From a virus: a stretch of 21,949 nucleotides of DNA. Within the stretch, counting starts at the first letter, position 1, and each line of letters begins with the position of its first letter. A model generated the notes under the pieces. It ran no database searches and was not told the origin of the DNA. It saw only the letters and a list, made by a program, of their open reading frames with translations. Shown piece after piece: positions 11,095 through 21,906 of this stretch. The stretch lies in the IMG/VR virus record IMGVR_UViG_3300025647_000320, positions 1-21,949 of that record; one strand, 5' to 3'. The position numbers were made by a program, and so were the translations under genes.

Positions 11095-13436
11095 AGCACA
11101 ACTTAGTTAAATCGCAGATACCGTTTTATTTCTTTAAGAATCAAGGAAAATATTCTTTATTGTATTTGGACCTCGTCAATTTGGCTTACACAAAGCTTAA
11201 GACAGCACAGTTGCTTTACGATGTTAACGAAGATTTATTCATGACATTGATGAAAGATTTTGTCGTTGGTTCTCTTGATATAAGAAAGGCGCCCTTAAAA
11301 ACAATCGAAGGCTATAATGATCTCGGAACAAAGCGTAAATTGTACGACGATGCGAACGAATATGTTCTCGCAAGAACCAAAATGAACGACGGAGCCTTCG
11401 AAGAAAGCTATTTGATGTCTTATTTTGGTAGAGAGTTCTCGGCTAATCCCAACAATCTTGTCAAGACAAACAGTACAGTTTTTAATGAAAACAGTACGGA
11501 AACATTTGACGTCTCCAAGAAAATCGGTTATATTAAGGAACTGCCTGAAAATGAAAGATTTCTGAAGCAGCTTTATCTTATCGATGAAATCTATGATGCT
11601 TTCGAAAGAAAAGATTATAAAGTAAAAATCGCATGTGAATTCAACGATAACTTCAAACGTGAGCTTCAGAAAAGATATGATGCTCTATCTGTTGAGTTAT
11701 CTCGGCTTGAGTTGATTTATTCTGGATTCTCTATTAATCCTTCGAGACAAAATATAATTAATTTCTTTTCCTCGAATGGAATTACATTAAATCCGGATCT
11801 TTCTTTCAGACAAATCGAAAGCCAAGAAGCATTTAAATCAAGTATTTTCAAAATCATTGAAAACAGAATCCACGACATCCTCGAGACCCTTAATAAAGAC
11901 AAAGGACAGAATCTAGCAACCCTTAGAAACGTAATCAAGAATCTTTATGTGAACACAGTGTCGACAGACAGCTATCGTAATGTTGTAGATTATTGTAGCA
12001 GAATTTTGAAGCAATTCAGCGAGAAGTATGATCTTCAATCAAACCCCGGAGCTAGCTCAAAGCAAACAGTCGATAGCACAACGCGAGTTGAATTTATTGT
12101 TAATAAACTTGTAAAATATCAAAGAAAAAGAAACGGAGCATTTAGATTTTTTAATCTTAATAATAACAGTCCAATTGTTAATAGAAACTATCTTATTCAG
12201 CGTGGATATGATGAGTTTAACAAATTTTTTGACACAACACCAGCTTCATCTGACATTCTTTCAATAACATCAGATCTAACTCAGGAACAAGCTCAAAAAT
12301 TTGTTGATTTTGAAACATCGCGTTATCTTTATTTTAGTCCAATTGAATTTGTAAAGAATGATGAAAAGGTCGATTTTTCATCGGGCAACCTTTCGATGTT
12401 CAAAGAAGAAGCTCATGAAGGCATCACAGATTTAAAATTCGAGGACAATGTTGGCAAACCTCCTCCAAAAAAGAAAATTAAAAACAGAGGCCGCATGCGT
12501 GGTAAACCAAAATTCCAAAATAAAAAAAGAACAAAAGGAAAAAAATTCAAAGCAAAAACAAGAGGCTTTCTTTCAACTCTTGTGGCTCGTCGACCTTTTC
12601 CACAAAACGAAATAATTGACACTGATGAAACGCGCGAGGACATAAAAGAATATCTTGGAAGTAATAGCTTAATTTTGTCTCAAACAGAAACCATAAAAGA
12701 GAAAGAAGAAAAACAACCAGACGCAGTTGTGACTATCAAAAATTATTTTGCAGACGAAGTTATTCTTGATTCATTTAAGTTTTTGTCTCTAACTAACGAC
12801 GAGTCTATTATCTTGCGGAATAAAAATCAAATTGATTTCTCTTTATTTCCTCTGCAAATCAAGGCTTTGATTCTCTCAAACTACGAGCTATCCAGATTCT
12901 CTTTTAATTTTGAAGAGACAGATCTGCTAAATGTTAAAAGATTTGCTGTTATCATGAACAACATTTTCTCAAAAATAAAGGTTGCGTCTTATATCGACGG
13001 CTTTGAAATCAACGAACTTGGTTTGAGAAACTTGTCCGAGCCTATTTACATGCCCGTAAGTAACGATGTTGTGAACTCTACCAAGACCTTGGCTGTATTT
13101 CTCGAGGACTATAAAAATAATTTTGTTCAAATTGTAGAAGAAGACAGCATTGTCTCGACTGACACCTTCATTTTGGTCGAAGGCGAAGGCTTATCCGAAC
13201 AAGCTACCCCAATGCGACAAGAGCTGAACGACACTATCCCGGACAGATATGTCAAGCGTTACTCTAGCAATAACCAAATACGACAAAGCCCGAAATCACA
13301 GCAGCTCATGAAAATAAAAGTAACACCTGCGATCGATAATCAAACACAGCAGCAAACAAATAGACCAACACAAACTCAAAATCAACCAAACAGAACACCG
13401 ACAAGAAGACTTAGACCCAGCGGAGGAGGCTACTAA
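11091..13436 (+). CDS. Virion-module protein with internal polybasic patch and Q/N/T/P-rich tail (781 aa)
   Basis: The ATG at 11091 overlaps the upstream TGA (ATGA); no Shine-Dalgarno is seen, so coupling is likely. Residues 1-450 look like a mixed helical protein with coiled-coil-like stretches (about residues 180-215, rich in K/R/E/L). Residues about 456-493 (bases 12456-12569) are extremely basic, with KPPPKKKIKNRGRMRGKPK followed by more Lys/Arg. Residues about 500-730 form another folded-looking region. The C-terminus is disordered, rich in Gln, Asn, Thr and Pro, and ends RRLRPSGGGY. Those last codons, GGA GGA GGC TAC TAA TG, double as the ribosome-binding site and start of the next gene. 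I do not recognise the family. The position among structural genes suggests a virion component or assembly factor, and the basic patch suggests contact with nucleic acid or another acidic partner. Confidence 0.6.
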   Translation: MKHNLVKSQIPFYFFKNQGKYSLLYLDLVNLAYTKLKTAQLLYDVNEDLFMTLMKDFVVGSLDIRKAPLKTIEGYNDLGTKRKLYDDANEYVLARTKMNDGAFEESYLMSYFGREFSANPNNLVKTNSTVFNENSTETFDVSKKIGYIKELPENERFLKQLYLIDEIYDAFERKDYKVKIACEFNDNFKRELQKRYDALSVELSRLELIYSGFSINPSRQNIINFFSSNGITLNPDLSFRQIESQEAFKSSIFKIIENRIHDILETLNKDKGQNLATLRNVIKNLYVNTVSTDSYRNVVDYCSRILKQFSEKYDLQSNPGASSKQTVDSTTRVEFIVNKLVKYQRKRNGAFRFFNLNNNSPIVNRNYLIQRGYDEFNKFFDTTPASSDILSITSDLTQEQAQKFVDFETSRYLYFSPIEFVKNDEKVDFSSGNLSMFKEEAHEGITDLKFEDNVGKPPPKKKIKNRGRMRGKPKFQNKKRTKGKKFKAKTRGFLSTLVARRPFPQNEIIDTDETREDIKEYLGSNSLILSQTETIKEKEEKQPDAVVTIKNYFADEVILDSFKFLSLTNDESIILRNKNQIDFSLFPLQIKALILSNYELSRFSFNFEETDLLNVKRFAVIMNNIFSKIKVASYIDGFEINELGLRNLSEPIYMPVSNDVVNSTKTLAVFLEDYKNNFVQIVEEDSIVSTDTFILVEGEGLSEQATPMRQELNDTIPDRYVKRYSSNNQIRQSPKSQQLMKIKVTPAIDNQTQQQTNRPTQTQNQPNRTPTRRLRPSGGGY

Positions 13437-17471: not shown

Positions 17472-18622
17472 TGTCCAAGTTCAAGTTCAACAAAGAAGAC
17501 GTTTACGTCAATAGAACTAAAACTTATCCGGATTATAAGATATTTGTTAACGACGCAAACGTCACCATCAATAACGATGTTGTGACCAATGTGTCGTCAG
17601 CAGTGTCTGCCGGATATCAATCTTTGTATGAATATAATTTTGATAATCGTTTTGGTTATATTCACCCGTTCATAACAGATGGCGAGAATGTAACAAAACA
17701 AATCTTTCGACCGCAGATTTCTTCGAGCAATTTTGTGATAACAGGTTCGCAGAATCCAAATCAAGTTGTATACAACAATTTGCTGTCCTCGTCCGGTGCA
17801 AACATAACATCGTCTTATCTTGCAATGACGGCGTCTCTTAAACGAGAACAACCAATAAGCCAAAATAGATTCAGAGTGGTCAATCGTATTGCTACGAATT
17901 ATAAACTTTACAGCAGATCGTTCGATATTTCAGCAGATAGACCAGACACAAGTATTATCAACATTCCCCAAGTTATGTTTGGATCAGCTATTAAGAAAGG
18001 CTCGGTTGAGCTAAACTTTTATGCGACAGGGACTCTTGTTGCAACGGCGACGGACTACAGGCAAAATGGTGAACTAGTTCAAACAAATGGCACAAGCTCA
18101 GTTAGCGGCTCTGTTGTTGGTCTTGTATTCTATAACGAGGGTCTAATTTTTCTTTCGTCCTCCGCAGAACTTTATAACACTAGTTCAATGAATCGTTGGC
18201 TTGATTTCGGTATGGGTCTTCATGATGGAACATCAGCCGGCTCTGGCCTCGAAGAGCGATCATTCGAGATCAAATACAAAGGCACCAATTACGTCAACAC
18301 AATGACAATGTTCTGTCATGCACGAGCCGGAGAACTTAATCTCTCAAACAATCCAACATCAATCGATTGGTCGGAGGAAACACAATTTACAATTTCAGAC
18401 ACCGGATCTACATTTGGCTTTGAGGAAAGACAAAAGAAAATAAAGAATGTTGTGTCCTCGAGCATTGAGAATTTAAACGACGATTTCAAAAAGACAACAT
18501 ATATTTCAAAAATCAATATGTATGATGATAAAGGAAACCTTATTGGTGTTGCTTCATTAGCTCAACCGATAAGAAAAGAAGAAAATAACGATTATACATT
18601 TAAAATTGAATTAGATACTTGA
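17471..18622 (+). CDS. Phage structural protein, second of two adjacent paralogues (383 aa)
   Basis: The start is given by the TAATG overlap at 17469-17473; no Shine-Dalgarno is visible, so reinitiation after the upstream paralogue is likely. Shared elements with that paralogue are IKKGSVELNFYATG, GLVFYNEGLIFLSSS, a FCHARAGELNLSNNPTS motif (FCHxxAxExNxSxNPT in both), and INMYDDKGNLIGVASLAQPI then RK near the end. A charged insertion (EERQKKIKNVVSSSIENLND, about 18421-18480) has no equivalent in the 355-aa protein. It is the last gene of the structural module. Its TGA stop (18620-18622) lies inside the -35 hexamer of the promoter for the next module. Confidence 0.65.
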   Translation: MSKFKFNKEDVYVNRTKTYPDYKIFVNDANVTINNDVVTNVSSAVSAGYQSLYEYNFDNRFGYIHPFITDGENVTKQIFRPQISSSNFVITGSQNPNQVVYNNLLSSSGANITSSYLAMTASLKREQPISQNRFRVVNRIATNYKLYSRSFDISADRPDTSIINIPQVMFGSAIKKGSVELNFYATGTLVATATDYRQNGELVQTNGTSSVSGSVVGLVFYNEGLIFLSSSAELYNTSSMNRWLDFGMGLHDGTSAGSGLEERSFEIKYKGTNYVNTMTMFCHARAGELNLSNNPTSIDWSEETQFTISDTGSTFGFEERQKKIKNVVSSSIENLNDDFKKTTYISKINMYDDKGNLIGVASLAQPIRKEENNDYTFKIELDT

Positions 18623-18647
18623 CATTTAATCAAAAGTATGTTATAAT
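18619..18647 (+). promoter_or_regulatory. Perfect consensus sigma70-type promoter with extended -10
   Basis: TTGACA at 18619-18624, a spacer of exactly 17 bases, and TATAAT at 18642-18647 preceded by TGT (extended -10 TGn). All 12 hexamer positions match consensus. The predicted start of transcription falls at about 18653-18655, on the ATG of the RuvC-like gene. It marks the switch from the structural to the nucleic-acid module and is expected to be read by host RNA polymerase. Confidence 0.9.
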
Positions 18648-18652
18648 ATATT

Positions 18653-19198
18653 ATGTCTAAAAAATGTATTCTTGGTATTGATGTAAGTACCTCACGTATC
18701 GGTATTGCTGCGATTGCCGAAAACGAAAAACTTTTATTCGCTGATACTCTAACCTTTAAAAACAAAGATCTTTCTCTTGAAGATAAAGCAATTGCTTTCG
18801 AGAATACTTTGCGAAAGATTGTTGAGATCGAGAAATTAGATCCTTTGGCCGTCTTTATTGAAGAGCCTTTCTCGGCATTTGCCGGAGGAAAGACTTCTGC
18901 TAATACAATGGCGAAACTTCAACGATTCAATGGAATGTGTTGCCTTGCGACACGAAAGATCTTTGATGAAGATTCAACTCTCCTCCCAGCAAGAGAATGT
19001 CGCTCTCTCAATGAAATAAAGATTCCCCGAGGATCCGACACAAAGAAATTAATTATTGATTGGGTCTCCGCAAAATATCCGAAAGATTTTAAATATGAAT
19101 TAACAAATCACGGCAATCCAAAACCGGGCACGGATGATAAGGCAGATGCTGTTGTGGTTGCCCTTGCTGGTCTTAAAAAATATAAAAAATCTATTTGA
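18653..19198 (+). CDS. ruvC: RuvC-like Holliday junction resolvase / RNase H-fold nuclease (181 aa)
   Basis: The protein opens with CILGIDVSTSRIGIA, the first strand and metal-binding Asp (D10) of the RuvC/RNase H fold. The second acidic site is in AVFIEEPFSAF (E70/E71), and the last two are in TDDKADAVVVALAGL (D161/D162 and D165). These correspond to the four carboxylates of E. coli RuvC. At 181 aa the length is normal for a phage RuvC. The fold cleaves four-way junctions with two metal ions and in phages resolves branched DNA before packaging. The start must be the ATG at 18653, since the catalytic strand begins at residue 5. There is no Shine-Dalgarno before it, and the promoter -10 ends five bases upstream, so the mRNA is probably leaderless. 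Its own TGA stop overlaps the -35 hexamer of the next promoter. The family is clear; exact substrate preference is not. Confidence 0.88.
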   Translation: MSKKCILGIDVSTSRIGIAAIAENEKLLFADTLTFKNKDLSLEDKAIAFENTLRKIVEIEKLDPLAVFIEEPFSAFAGGKTSANTMAKLQRFNGMCCLATRKIFDEDSTLLPARECRSLNEIKIPRGSDTKKLIIDWVSAKYPKDFKYELTNHGNPKPGTDDKADAVVVALAGLKKYKKSI

Positions 19199-19223
19199 CA
19201 AATCATTTGTGCTGTGTTATCTT
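19195..19223 (+). promoter_or_regulatory. Sigma70-type promoter for the primase gene
   Basis: A perfect -35 TTGACA at 19195-19200 is followed by 17 bases and TATCTT at 19218-19223 (4 of 6 matches). A further AT-rich TATATA lies at 19223-19228 as an alternative. The predicted transcript starts near 19230, giving a leader of about a dozen bases before the ATG at 19243. The TGA stop of the RuvC-like gene (19196-19198) is contained in the -35 hexamer. Confidence 0.7.
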
Positions 19224-19242: not shown

Positions 19243-20184
19243 ATGAACGAAAAAATCAAAATCATCAATAACATTCTTGGATCCTATCGCAAGCAACGGG
19301 ACGAGCATCTATACTCTTGTCCTTTCTGCGAGGACACAAAAGGAAAGAAAAAACTTTCTGTTAATTATGCAAAGAACTACGCAAAGTGTTGGAAATGCGA
19401 TTTTAGAACCAAGAACATTTACCGAATCGTCCGTCGCTTTGGAACCTATGATCAACGACAAAAGTGGCTTCAACTTGACGGACGACTTGATCTCTCCGAG
19501 TTCGATAAGTTCTTCGCCGAGATCAACGAGAAAGAAATAAAGCAAACCATCTCTCTTCCAGATGAGTTTGTTTCGCTTTGTAACAAGAATCTTCCAATGT
19601 CCTCGTCCAAAGCACTTGACTATTTAAGATCCCGAGGAATAACAAAAAAACAAATCCTCGATTGGAAAATAGGTTATGCAACAGGAGGCAAGTATGGAGG
19701 CCGAATTATTATCCCTAGTTTTAATTGGGACGGCAATTGCAGTTATTTTATCGCTCGTTCTTTTGTGGGACATCAAAGACGATATCTAAACCCTCCCGTT
19801 GGACGAGATATTGTCTTTAACGAACTATTTATTGATTGGGACGAAGATGTCGTTCTCGTTGAAGGGGTATTTGATGCAATCGTTGCTGGCTCCAATTCTA
19901 TTCCTATTTTGGGTTCTACTTTGCGTGAAAATTCACGATTATTTCAACAAATTGTAATGAATGACACGCCGGTATACCTTGCCCTAGATAAAGACGCGGA
20001 GACCAAAAGAAACTGGATTATCAAGTCCTTTTTGAGGTATGACATCGAATTATATGTTATTGACACATCGGGCTGCGAAGATATTGGCTCAATGTCCAAA
20101 GAAGAGTTCGCTCTTCGAAAATCTCAAGCGCAACCTGCCGATCTTGACGAGATTATGATTTTTGATAAATTGAGAGCAATATGA
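19243..20184 (+). CDS. DnaG/T7-gp4-type DNA primase, zinc finger plus Toprim (313 aa)
   Basis: It makes RNA primers for replication. The start is the ATG at 19243, with GAGG at 19233-19236; a possible TTG at 19195 would lie inside the promoter -35 and is rejected. A four-cysteine zinc finger is visible: SCPFC (C26, C29) and KCWKC (C49, C52). LDYLRSRGITKKQILDWKIG (about residues 125-144) matches the linker helix before the RNA polymerase domain. RIIIPSFN begins the catalytic core. The Toprim domain has VVLVEGVFDAIVAG with catalytic E207 and VYLALDKDAETK with the D249-K-D251 metal motif. There is no helicase domain: the protein ends about 60 residues after the Toprim DxD, so a separate helicase must be encoded elsewhere. 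It overlaps the next gene by ATGA. The assignment is firm at family level. Confidence 0.9.
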   Translation: MNEKIKIINNILGSYRKQRDEHLYSCPFCEDTKGKKKLSVNYAKNYAKCWKCDFRTKNIYRIVRRFGTYDQRQKWLQLDGRLDLSEFDKFFAEINEKEIKQTISLPDEFVSLCNKNLPMSSSKALDYLRSRGITKKQILDWKIGYATGGKYGGRIIIPSFNWDGNCSYFIARSFVGHQRRYLNPPVGRDIVFNELFIDWDEDVVLVEGVFDAIVAGSNSIPILGSTLRENSRLFQQIVMNDTPVYLALDKDAETKRNWIIKSFLRYDIELYVIDTSGCEDIGSMSKEEFALRKSQAQPADLDEIMIFDKLRAI

Positions 20185-20384
20185 AATTAGAACTTGGAGA
20201 CTTGGTTCAACTAAACCAGCAACGATCCCTTTCAAACTGGTATATGCCTGAATTGCCTTTTCGAGGCCTTGGTGTTGTGGTTAAAATCGACGGCAGTGCT
20301 ATTGATGTTTACTGGATTGCAAAGAAAAAAATATCAACAATCTCCAGAACTTTATTAATAAAAGTACTTGACAAAAAAGATTAA
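20181..20384 (+). CDS. Small phage protein of SH3/KOW-like appearance (67 aa)
   Basis: The start overlaps the primase stop as ATGA (20181-20184), so it is translated by coupling with the primase. The sequence pattern, LELGDLVQL, then GLGVVVKIDGSAIDVYWIAK, is that of a small five-stranded barrel resembling SH3/KOW-type domains often seen as tiny phage proteins near replication genes. There is no signal or membrane segment. The C-terminal codons (V-L-D-K) contain the TTGACA -35 of the next promoter. The function is unknown; nucleic-acid or protein binding is a guess from the fold type. Confidence 0.6.
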   Translation: MKLELGDLVQLNQQRSLSNWYMPELPFRGLGVVVKIDGSAIDVYWIAKKKISTISRTLLIKVLDKKD

Positions 20385-20396
20385 ACAGGTTATATT
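20368..20396 (+). promoter_or_regulatory. Sigma70-type promoter for the lipoprotein/thioredoxin/speD operon
   Basis: TTGACA at 20368-20373, a 17-base spacer, then TATATT at 20391-20396 (5 of 6). The predicted start near 20403 gives a 25-base leader containing AAGGAG (20416-20421) six bases before the ATG at 20428. The -35 lies inside the end of the 67-aa gene. Confidence 0.8.
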
Positions 20397-20427: not shown

Positions 20428-20646
20428 ATGAGTATTATGTTATTTAGCATGCTGTGGGCGTGCTCTGGCGACAAATCTGAAGATTCCGCCGTTCCCGAAG
20501 ACGACACTGTTGTCGCTGAACCTGCTGAAGAACCAGCAGACACTGGATCAGAAGATTCAGGATCAGAACCAGAAGACACGGCTAGTGAGCCTGAAGATAC
20601 GGGCTCTGAACCACAAGATACAGCACAAGACTCTGGAGGTGAATAA
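20428..20646 (+). CDS. Micro-lipoprotein 1, Asp/Glu/Thr/Ser-rich (72 aa)
   Basis: AAGGAG six bases upstream and an in-frame TAA directly before the ATG fix the start. The N-terminus MSIMLFSMLWAC is a very short hydrophobic stretch ending in a lipobox-like L-W-A-C (Cys12). It has no Lys/Arg in the n-region and is shorter than classical lipoprotein signals. After the cysteine the chain has a single Lys, is strongly acidic and looks disordered, with three tandem SEPEDTx heptads (residues about 46-66) and other DTGSEDSG-type motifs. If lipidated, it would be an envelope protein with an acidic tether. Phage lipoproteins of comparable size include superinfection-exclusion proteins and outer-membrane spanins, but no sequence similarity to either is claimed. 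Its last codons encode the ribosome-binding site of the next gene. The function is unknown. Confidence 0.6.
   Translation: MSIMLFSMLWACSGDKSEDSAVPEDDTVVAEPAEEPADTGSEDSGSEPEDTASEPEDTGSEPQDTAQDSGGE
20563..20625 (+). repeat. Three tandem 21-base units encoding SEPEDTx
   Basis: Units at 20563-20583, 20584-20604 and 20605-20625 encode SEPEDTA, SEPEDTG and SEPQDTA. Synonymous and a few non-synonymous changes separate the units, so it is an older in-frame duplication rather than a perfect minisatellite. Confidence 0.75.
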
Positions 20647-20648
20647 TG
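20635..20648 (+). promoter_or_regulatory. Embedded ribosome-binding site and stop-start junction (copy 1)
   Basis: GGAGGTGAATAATG encodes Gly-Gly-Glu-stop of micro-lipoprotein 1 and provides GGAGG six bases before the ATG of micro-lipoprotein 2, whose A is the last base of the stop codon. The same 14 bases occur at 21065-21078. Confidence 0.8.
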
Positions 20649-20864
20649 AGTATGCTTTTGTCCTTTCTAATTGCTTGCGGTGGCGACACTGCTGAAACCA
20701 CCGAGGTCATTGAAACGACCGCAACGGTGACCGAAGAAGGAGTCGAAGTTGTCGAAACAACAACAACCGAGACGACAACGACGGAAGAAGTCACGATCGA
20801 AAATACGACGACTGAAACAACTGAAACAACTGAAAATACAGAAACTACGAACGAAACCGAGTAG
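20646..20864 (+). CDS. Micro-lipoprotein 2, Thr/Glu-rich (72 aa)
   Basis: The start is set by the TAATG overlap and the embedded GGAGG; a TGA lies in frame just upstream, so no longer form exists. MSMLLSFLIAC gives an 11-residue hydrophobic start with a good lipobox (L-I-A-C, Cys11), again without positive residues. After CGGD the chain is almost only Thr, Glu and Val, with runs such as ETTTTETTTTEEVT and ETTETTENTETTNETE. It is low-complexity, acidic and presumably extended, like an O-glycosylatable stalk, although glycosylation is speculation. The reverse strand is also open here because of the repeats, but shows no plausible protein. A terminator hairpin follows its TAG stop. The function is unknown. 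Confidence 0.6.
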   Translation: MSMLLSFLIACGGDTAETTEVIETTATVTEEGVEVVETTTTETTTTEEVTIENTTTETTETTENTETTNETE

Positions 20865-20876
20865 TTCACAGGGTTT

Positions 20877-20906
20877 GCGGCTCCCTCCAAAAGCCGCTTT
20901 TCTTTT
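20877..20906 (+). terminator. Intrinsic (rho-independent) terminator
   Basis: GCGGCT (20877-20882) pairs with AGCCGC (20892-20897) across a nine-base loop and is followed by TTTTCTTTT (20898-20906). Six G/C-rich pairs plus a U-tract are enough for a moderate terminator. No promoter is visible between it and the downstream genes, so it probably acts as a partial terminator that lowers expression of the third lipoprotein, thioredoxin and speD. Confidence 0.7.
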
Positions 20907-20917
20907 ATGGAGGACAA

Positions 20918-21076
20918 ATGATATTATTTTTATTTCTTGCTTGCGAGAAACCAGATTGCCTTGAATTGCAAGAACAGCCAGCCGAACAATGGAATGTTGA
21001 ACAAATGCACGGTGGTGATGATGATTTGGATTCAGGCGATCCACTAGATACTGCTTACGATACCGGAGGTGAATAA
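20918..21076 (+). CDS. Micro-lipoprotein 3, Asp-rich (52 aa)
   Basis: This very short gene begins at the ATG at 20918 with GGAGG at 20909-20913. It reads MILFLFLACEKPDCLELQEQ at the start, with an eight-residue hydrophobic stretch and lipobox L-A-C (Cys9), plus a second cysteine at residue 14. The C-terminal part, GDDDLDSGDPLDTAYDTGGE, repeats the DSG/DTG style of micro-lipoprotein 1 and ends with the same embedded Gly-Gly-Glu-stop. There is no Lys/Arg before the cysteine. The hydrophobic start, acidic body, coding-type spacing and overlap with thioredoxin (TAATG) support a real gene despite its size. The function is unknown; it is probably an envelope lipoprotein. Confidence 0.6.
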   Translation: MILFLFLACEKPDCLELQEQPAEQWNVEQMHGGDDDLDSGDPLDTAYDTGGE

Positions 21077-21078
21077 TG
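21065..21078 (+). promoter_or_regulatory. Embedded ribosome-binding site and stop-start junction (copy 2)
   Basis: The 14 bases are identical to 20635-20648 (GGAGGTGAATAATG), here joining micro-lipoprotein 3 to thioredoxin. GGAGG lies six bases before the thioredoxin ATG at 21076. Confidence 0.8.
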
Positions 21079-21402
21079 GAATTTATAGCAGATGGCGATT
21101 TCGCCAACAAGACGAGCCAAGGAATTGTGCTCGTTGATTTTTATGCTTCATGGTGTATGCCATGTTTACGAATGGAAAAGCAAGTCGAAGATTTTGCTTC
21201 AAACAATCCAAATGTGACTGTTTATAAATATAATGTCGACAAAGGTGTTAAAATTTGGAATGAGGCCAAACAAAGACACAATGTTCGATCTATTCCTTTT
21301 GTCGTAATCTACAAAGATGGAGAACCTGTAGCTGCCGAAGTCGGATATAAATCTTCAGAAGAATTACAAAAAATTTTCAATGATATTGTCTCTGGAGGTT
21401 AG
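21076..21402 (+). CDS. Thioredoxin, WCMPC active site (108 aa)
   Basis: A full-length single-domain thioredoxin. VLVDFYASWCMPCLRME contains the redox pair C27 and C30, the usual Trp before it, and the buried Asp21 equivalent to Asp26 of E. coli. RSIPFVVIYKDGEPV holds the cis-proline P74 and the last strands. The residue pair between the cysteines is Met-Pro instead of the usual Gly-Pro, which may alter redox potential or partner choice. There is no signal peptide, so it is cytoplasmic. Phage thioredoxins commonly feed ribonucleotide reductase or assist DNA polymerase; neither partner is in the window. The GGAGG encoded at its end (Ser-Gly-Gly-stop, 21394-21398) serves as ribosome-binding site for the decarboxylase gene, whose ATG follows two bases after the TAG. 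Confidence 0.92.
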   Translation: MEFIADGDFANKTSQGIVLVDFYASWCMPCLRMEKQVEDFASNNPNVTVYKYNVDKGVKIWNEAKQRHNVRSIPFVVIYKDGEPVAAEVGYKSSEELQKIFNDIVSGG

Positions 21403-21404
21403 CG

Positions 21405-21875
21405 ATGGAAAATTTTGTTTATGATGGTCGTCATTTGATGATCGATGCGATTTGTCTTAATAAAGACCTGCTATGTGACCCAGACATAGCAATAAGAGCA
21501 ATGGAGGAAATTGTCGAAACAATAGACATGACTATGATTCTTCCACCAGTTACAGTAAAATTTCCACATTCTGTTTGTGAAATGAACAGAGTTCTTAAAA
21601 AATTAGAAGCCGAAGGTTTAGCCAATTCTAATACCGCTCAAGAAATCAAGAAAGATCTTAAACTTCGAAAAGAAGAATCTTATGGTTTTTCTACATTTCT
21701 TATGATTGCCGAATCGCACATAAGCATTCATACATTCCCAGAATTGAATTATTTTTCTTTCGATTGTTATTCTTGTAAATGGTTTGATGCCGAAACTGTT
21801 TATCTTATTCTTAATAGAATTTTTAATATACAGAATGAGACAACACAATTAATTGAAAGAAAAATTCCACAATAA
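21405..21875 (+). CDS. speD: Pyruvoyl-dependent S-adenosylmethionine decarboxylase family (156 aa)
   Basis: The enzyme makes decarboxylated AdoMet, the aminopropyl donor for spermidine. The core motif is IAESHISIHTFPE: self-cleavage is expected between E103 and S104, with S104 forming the pyruvoyl group. H109 and C124 (in CYSCKWFD) lie 5 and 20 residues after it, the same spacing as Ser63, His68 and Cys83 of Thermotoga SpeH. The N-terminal YDGRHLMIDA matches the GRHL strand of the family. About 40 extra residues separate GRH from the cleavage site compared with Thermotoga, mostly a charged helical stretch (residues about 58-92). The start has GGAGG six bases upstream. Some bacterial and viral homologues have become ornithine or arginine decarboxylases, so family is sure but substrate is not. 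It lies in an operon with thioredoxin and lipoproteins and is followed by a new promoter. Confidence 0.9.
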   Translation: MENFVYDGRHLMIDAICLNKDLLCDPDIAIRAMEEIVETIDMTMILPPVTVKFPHSVCEMNRVLKKLEAEGLANSNTAQEIKKDLKLRKEESYGFSTFLMIAESHISIHTFPELNYFSFDCYSCKWFDAETVYLILNRIFNIQNETTQLIERKIPQ

Positions 21876-21877
21876 AC

Positions 21878-21906
21878 TTGACAACACACAACAATCGTGA
21901 TACAAT
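21878..21906 (+). promoter_or_regulatory. Near-perfect sigma70-type promoter with extended -10
   Basis: TTGACA at 21878-21883, a 17-base spacer, and TACAAT at 21901-21906 preceded by TGA (extended -10). The predicted start near 21913 leaves a short leader with AAGGAGG (21914-21920) four bases before the ATG at 21925. Confidence 0.85.

Follow-up and report, generated by a model that had tools for sequence, protein, structure and literature searches.

Predicted phage lipoproteins with very short, uncharged signals, and similar signals in a Myxococcota-like bacterial order

Can a hydrophobic stretch of 8 to 11 residues without a single charge direct a protein to lipidation, and why would a phage carry several small proteins that begin in this way? 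The question is raised by three neighbouring genes, here called LpA, LpB and LpC, in a 21.9-kb fragment of a tailed-phage record (IMG/VR virus record IMGVR_UViG_3300025647_000320, positions 1 to 21,949; "the window" refers to this whole stretch). An earlier note made from the sequence alone described open reading frames of 72, 72 and 52 amino acids (aa), each with a short hydrophobic start leading to a lipobox cysteine and an acidic low-complexity tail, and this description stands. Judged by their sequences, LpA, LpB and, where present, LpC are very likely real lipoproteins. The reading that we favour, with a probability of roughly 0.55, is that they form an early lipoprotein cassette written in the signal grammar of the host, bound to the outer membrane and serving in exclusion or masking. 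The three genes, with a slash placed before the cysteine, are as follows.

20428-20646, + strand: LpA, predicted lipoprotein of 72 aa, MSIMLFSMLWA/CSGDK..., with an acidic D/E/S/P/T tail (open reading frame, conservation in six phages, invariant cysteine).
20646-20864, + strand: LpB, predicted lipoprotein of 72 aa, MSMLLSFLIA/CGGDT..., with an E/T-rich tail (open reading frame, conservation in six phages).
20918-21076, + strand: LpC, predicted accessory lipoprotein of 52 aa, MILFLFLA/CEKPDC..., with a D/E tail (open reading frame, Shine-Dalgarno site GGAGG at 20909-20913).

Short signals and their conservation in related phages

The cysteine is preceded by 11 residues in LpA, 10 in LpB and 8 in LpC, and the absence of Lys and Arg from all three, already remarked upon in the earlier note, extends to Asp and Glu. 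An in-frame stop lies immediately 5' of the ATG of LpA and another one codon 5' of the ATG of LpB, so that neither signal can be longer with any ordinary start codon. The signal length of LpC is less certain given 28 open codons upstream, and here the GGAGG site points to the called ATG as the start. Lipoprotein signals have 16-26 residues on average and a positively charged n-region (PMC8689077). LpA, LpB and LpC have neither the positive n-region nor the length of about 16-26 residues of a canonical type-II signal; all three fall instead within the short-signal class of the UBA2385 bacterial order described below (6-12 residues, no K, R, D or E), with a longer start impossible for two of the three, LpA and LpB. 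LpA and LpC also share a C-terminal [ST]GGE, which is probably, at least in part, a by-product of the next gene's Shine-Dalgarno sequence GGAGGTGAATAATG lying in the 3' end of the coding sequence.

Related phages were gathered from IMG/VR contigs by primase and resolvase searches, and six distinct genomes reach the locus: the window, G003/L004, G004/L005, G005/L006, G009/L010 (counted together with its near-identical copies L007-L009) and G010/L015. LpA and LpB occupy the same place in all six, while LpC is found in two, the window phage and G003; in G004, G005, G009 and G010 the thioredoxin gene stands directly 3' of a hairpin with no LpC between. LpA-LpB is the conserved unit and LpC is an add-on. 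The N-termini are nearly frozen across the six phages, as MSI[ML]L[FY][SG]ML[WF]AC in LpA and M[SNTI][MI]LLS[FLI]L[IV]AC in LpB, with the cysteine invariant in both. The ratio of nonsynonymous to synonymous differences (pN/pS), pooled over all phage pairs as a descriptive figure with no statistical test, is 0.22 for the LpA signal and 0.15 for the LpB signal, against 0.39 and 0.40 for the respective tails and 0.37 for the neighbouring thioredoxin. By these ratios the signals of LpA and LpB are under strong purifying selection.

The conserved cysteine and the purifying selection on the frames (0.22 and 0.15 in the signals, 0.39-0.40 in the tails) are what the earlier note expected of genuine lipoprotein genes. 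Its view that the repeated architecture reflects one functional module rather than chance holds for LpA-LpB, which goes beyond chance both in its presence in six of six phages and in its pN/pS; the trio is not fixed. The three-gene arrangement near thioredoxin and speD that it proposed to look for is likewise found in part: the pair recurs throughout, LpC in two of the six, and SpeD is absent from this place in five relatives. That the three reading frames are unexpressed or not genes at all might be argued from their low complexity and from the lack of family matches (LpA, LpB and LpC have no Pfam, PHROG, NCBIfam or PADLOC family, the NCBIfam hits at E=0.009-0.17 being far below the cut-off), but the frame, the Shine-Dalgarno sites and the promoter are conserved and selection is purifying, which makes this scarcely credible.

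Predicted minimal lipoprotein signals in the UBA2385 order

The order concerned is Myxococcota-like, with Deltaproteobacteria bacterium UBA2385 (L021, G011) as its reference genome. The pattern ACxGDKDTG, run across genome contigs, gave mostly chance matches, yet led to UBA2385 (L021), which carries short-signal genes. An unrestricted survey of genome samples revealed lipobox genes with a maximum possible signal of 6-13 residues, some with room for no more than 6-9, in three genomes: G011 (5 of 11 lipobox genes), G021 (9 of 18) and G065 (7 of 11). Longer, charged signals exist alongside them in these samples. When other residues were put at the position of Cys as a control, G021 and G065 yielded 0-3 for each residue, and chance probably accounts for two of the seven short-signal genes in G065 and for one of the five in G011.

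A genome-wide pattern consisting of GGAG, a spacer, ATG, a short stretch, three NTN codons, Ala and Cys was scanned over 379 genomes of the phylum, with the reversed pattern as control; the pattern itself confines the length to 7-12 and leaves the enrichment, the reading frame and the charge free. Across the 58 sampled genomes of the order the median is 16 matches and the maximum 88, the reversed pattern giving about 0, whereas the first 100 genomes outside the order sample have a median of 2 and a maximum of 9 (Mann-Whitney U test against the order, p=7e-21), and 120 Pseudomonadota genomes have at most 6 each. Four later genomes outside the order sample (G324, G331, G334, G337) are also high in matches and may be members of the order, which was sampled from a larger group. 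All 77 matches in G021 are in frame, none has K or R and none has D or E, and their lengths run from 7 to 12 with a mode of 7 (MLWLLLAC, MILLLLAC). Outside the order, among the matches listed, 67 of 92 are in frame, and K or R occurs in 51 of these.

The proteins that carry these signals include FlgH (PF02107, E=7.4e-46), with the signal MSLVLALFVA/C, as well as MsrA, a sulfatase, a periplasmic-binding protein and a metallophosphatase. FlgH is an established lipoprotein in enterobacteria. Both Lgt and LspA were found in all ten order genomes examined. Lgt-family (PF01790) matches are multiple throughout the phylum, at 2-8 per genome (G021, G036, G047, G057, G304 and others), far above the usual single copy. 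An expansion of Lgt was considered as an order-specific cause of the short signals and rejected, as the 3-5 matches per genome in the order compare with 2-8 outside it and multiplicity looks like a trait of the phylum.

We lean towards the view that in this order uncharged signals of 7-9 residues, too short to span a membrane in the usual model, serve to export and lipidate a large part of the lipoproteome, including FlgH. This would imply an adapted or alternative targeting or insertion step, and phages of the order would have taken over the same kind of signal for a cassette devoted to modifying the envelope. The absence of Lys and Arg, which had seemed odd for substrates of Sec and Lgt, loses that meaning here: since the order uses uncharged signals of 7-12 residues genome-wide, such signals do not count against Sec/Lgt processing. 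It had also been suggested that the proteins are cytosolic acidic peptides that mimic lipoproteins, acting for example as DNA-mimic inhibitors, and their high acidity and signals below the 16-26 residues usual for lipoproteins (PMC8689077) would suit such a role. This is nevertheless highly unlikely, because the same class of uncharged signal sits genome-wide on exported proteins of the likely host order, FlgH among them; the signal with its cysteine is, moreover, the best conserved part of LpA and LpB.

Host, expression and possible role of the cassette

The phage host probably lies in or near the UBA2385 order. The 131-kb genome G003, which has LpA, LpB and LpC, encodes a predicted VWA lipoprotein of 323 aa with the signal MLFFILFFLS/C (G003 12347-13318, L030). 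Homologues of its VWA part occur in 107 of the 379 phylum genomes, among them nearly all sampled members of the order, and the homologue in G021 has the signal MTLLLLIS/C and matches the G003 protein at E=2e-18. It is this combination of the same signal style with homologues in the order that singles the order out as the likely host, and at the level of sequence the phage and host signals follow one grammar. The G003 gene itself is possibly a host-acquired envelope gene. The best matches of the phage primase are to Flavobacterium phages, at about 30%. A Bacteroidota host is disfavoured, as the phage has perfect TTGACA/TATAAT promoters and GGAGG Shine-Dalgarno sites, and the Bacteroidota style is without either.

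Three further features lie around the genes of the cassette.

20368-20396, + strand: sigma-70 promoter TTGACA-N17-TATATT (11/12), 5' of LpA, with both hexamers and the 17-nt spacer in six of six phages.
20877-20906, + strand: terminator-like hairpin GCGGCT-N9-AGCCGC followed by TTTTCTTTT (T-rich), closing the LpA-LpB unit.
21076-21402, + strand: thioredoxin (WCMPC; Pfam PF00085, E=4.9e-16), context outside the lipoprotein unit.

The promoter ends 31 bp before the start of LpA. A generic promoter scan of the window gave no overall enrichment (11 found, 11.1 expected from shuffles), and its four best sites, at 18619-18647 (12/12), 20368-20396, 21878-21906 and 19195-19223, all lie on the + (coding) strand with 17-nt spacers. 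Going by these four near-perfect sigma-70 promoters, the replication genes seem to be divided among several host-polymerase units; a further match to the promoter pattern, L165, was set aside as chance. Both arms of the hairpin stem are identical in six of six phages, the hairpin occurs in eight IMG/VR contigs and the stem is seen in the minimum free energy fold. The terminator is called from the hairpin with its T-run and from their conservation, not from the fold stability of the whole 56-nt gap between LpB and LpC, which is not unusual (z=-0.43). The LpB start overlaps the LpA stop and the thioredoxin start overlaps the LpC stop, each through TAATG, and at both overlaps the Shine-Dalgarno sequence GGAGGTGAA sits within the 3' end of the upstream gene. 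The host sigma-70-type promoters suggest early expression of LpA-LpB.

The cassette is flanked on its 5' side by a RuvC-like resolvase, a DnaG-type primase and a conserved 67-aa protein (window 20181-20384, between the primase and LpA) with a weak KOW-like match (E=0.018) that may hint at RNA or transcription, and on its 3' side by thioredoxin and the S-adenosylmethionine decarboxylase SpeD (window 21405-21875). SpeD is missing from that position in all five relatives examined. As an anchor for finding the cassette it led to a single unrelated phage, L002, which lacks the cassette in that neighbourhood, and was dropped; the SpeD copy of L002 is 58% identical to that of the window and is followed by a spermidine synthase-like open reading frame.

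In the favoured reading, host RNA polymerase would transcribe the LpA-LpB unit early, and the chains would be exported, lipidated on the cysteine by host Lgt and cleaved by LspA. The LWAC/LFAC lipobox of LpA is acceptable because AWAC, with Trp at -2, has been verified as a working lipobox among spanins (PMC6139136). An outer-membrane destination would follow from the +2 residue, which is Ser, Gly or Glu rather than Asp or Lys, since in Myxococcus xanthus a Lys at +2 retains lipoproteins in the inner membrane (PMC3222651). Once there, the disordered acidic tails would cover or obstruct a structure of the outer membrane, with a phage receptor as the likeliest candidate, so that superinfecting phages are excluded, much as small lipoproteins expressed early by T5 exclude superinfection (PMC9586334). 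Superinfection exclusion or surface masking is thus the leading suggestion for function, offered tentatively by analogy from the early-type promoters, the small lipoproteins and their likely outer-membrane destination.

Several observations weigh against this. Unlike Llp and Cor, the cassette is not beside a recognised receptor-binding gene, its neighbours being RuvC, primase and thioredoxin, and the structural proteins upstream carry no assignment; nor do LpA, LpB and LpC show homology to any exclusion protein or defence family in Pfam, PHROG, NCBIfam or PADLOC. The tails of LpA and LpB differ in length and sequence between phages, which disfavours a single precise protein-protein interface. 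The link to the host is indirect, and the phages have a GC content of 37-41% compared with 53-72% in the sampled order genomes; the phages may in fact infect a low-GC relative that lies outside the sample. Finally, G003 has a possible lysis module 3.5 kb downstream of the cassette.

This last point bears on lysis, in which one of the lipoproteins would be an o-spanin that pairs with an inner-membrane i-spanin and fuses the membranes at the end of infection. The mature chains, of about 44-62 residues, fit the size range of small o-spanins, and G003 has a 132-aa coiled-coil protein with an N-terminal transmembrane (TM) segment and a weak Rz-like match (E=0.11). This nearest candidate for an i-spanin, however, is neither adjacent, overlapping nor embedded, standing about 3.5 kb off behind an SbcCD-like gene, and its gene overlaps that of a second exported TM protein, with which it would naturally pair. 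A strong promoter and a terminator of its own serve the cassette, which sits in a replication block (RuvC, primase, SbcCD-like). There are two or three lipoproteins, no proline-rich stretch is present, and every homologue ends in an acidic, hydrophilic C-terminus, without the C-terminal TM segment of a u-spanin. An o-spanin role is unlikely, and less likely than superinfection exclusion or surface masking. The possible lysis-like group in G003 (96007-97126, L034) comprises, besides the 132-aa protein, one of 106 aa that has hydrophobic segments and one of 134 aa that carries the signal MILMLLASIAYGEA (short and uncharged up to its Glu) and a C-terminal TM segment.

Two other roles seem about as improbable as lysis. 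The proteins could be abundant tiny substrates that occupy host Lgt, LspA or Lol, slowing host lipoprotein traffic or causing envelope stress; the strong promoter, the signal grammar identical to that of the host, the minimal variable passenger and the two similar tandem substrates are all consistent with such titration, but purifying selection on the tails (pN/pS 0.39-0.40) exceeds what a pure decoy would call for. Alternatively, they could form a cell-surface or capsule-like acidic coat with an effect on infected cells (their aggregation, grazing or matrix properties) in place of phage exclusion. The low-complexity D/T/S/E tails do look like linker segments found in host lipoproteins, MLALILAC...TDTGDTEGDADTDSDTDSDTDSGDTGEE for example, and G003 carries a VWA lipoprotein too; the matrix-sorting residue of M. 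xanthus, Ala at +7 (PMC3222651), is absent from the phage proteins.

Significance and comparison with known systems

As phage proteins for modifying the envelope, the lipoproteins of the LpA-LpB(-LpC) cassette make up a new candidate class and a new variation on the small lipoproteins that phages encode; of greater weight is the host-wide minimal signal. If it is true, the minimum requirement for recognition by Sec, Lgt and LspA, and with it the lower limit of a lipoprotein signal, becomes directly testable. A positive n-region and a length of about 16-26 residues are what textbooks and signal-peptide predictors look for. The lipoproteomes of the order would also be under-annotated, and the minimal signal would provide a sequence signature for assigning phages to a poorly studied bacterial lineage. 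No description of a host-wide minimal signal was found in the literature searched, the incomplete coverage of which makes this weak evidence of novelty.

Among phage systems the closest likeness is to Llp of T5 and Cor of T1 and phi80 (PMC9586334), which share with the cassette a small phage lipoprotein, probably early (Llp is reported to be early) and probably located at the outer membrane. T5 Llp is folded, has a disulphide and attaches to FhuA on the periplasmic side, and its gene neighbours the one for the receptor-binding protein (PMC9586334), whereas LpA and LpB are predicted to be disordered, lie in a replication block and have no sequence similarity to Llp or Cor. The Rz1-type o-spanins (PMC6139136) are likewise tiny phage lipoproteins, and the Trp lipobox AWAC verified among spanins supports LWAC, but LpA and LpB have no adjacent or overlapping i-spanin, no proline-rich region and an early-type promoter of their own. 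With canonical type-II signal peptides (PMC8689077) the short-signal class shares the hydrophobic stretch and the lipobox cysteine, and it differs in having 7-12 residues rather than an average of 16-26 and in being without a positively charged n-region. The lipoproteins of the UBA2385 order resemble those of the phage in the length range of the signal, the absence of K, R, D and E, the [LIFMVW]-x-A-C ending and the D/T/S/E-rich tails; where the order attaches this signal to folded domains (FlgH, MsrA, sulfatase, VWA), LpA and LpB consist of the tail only.
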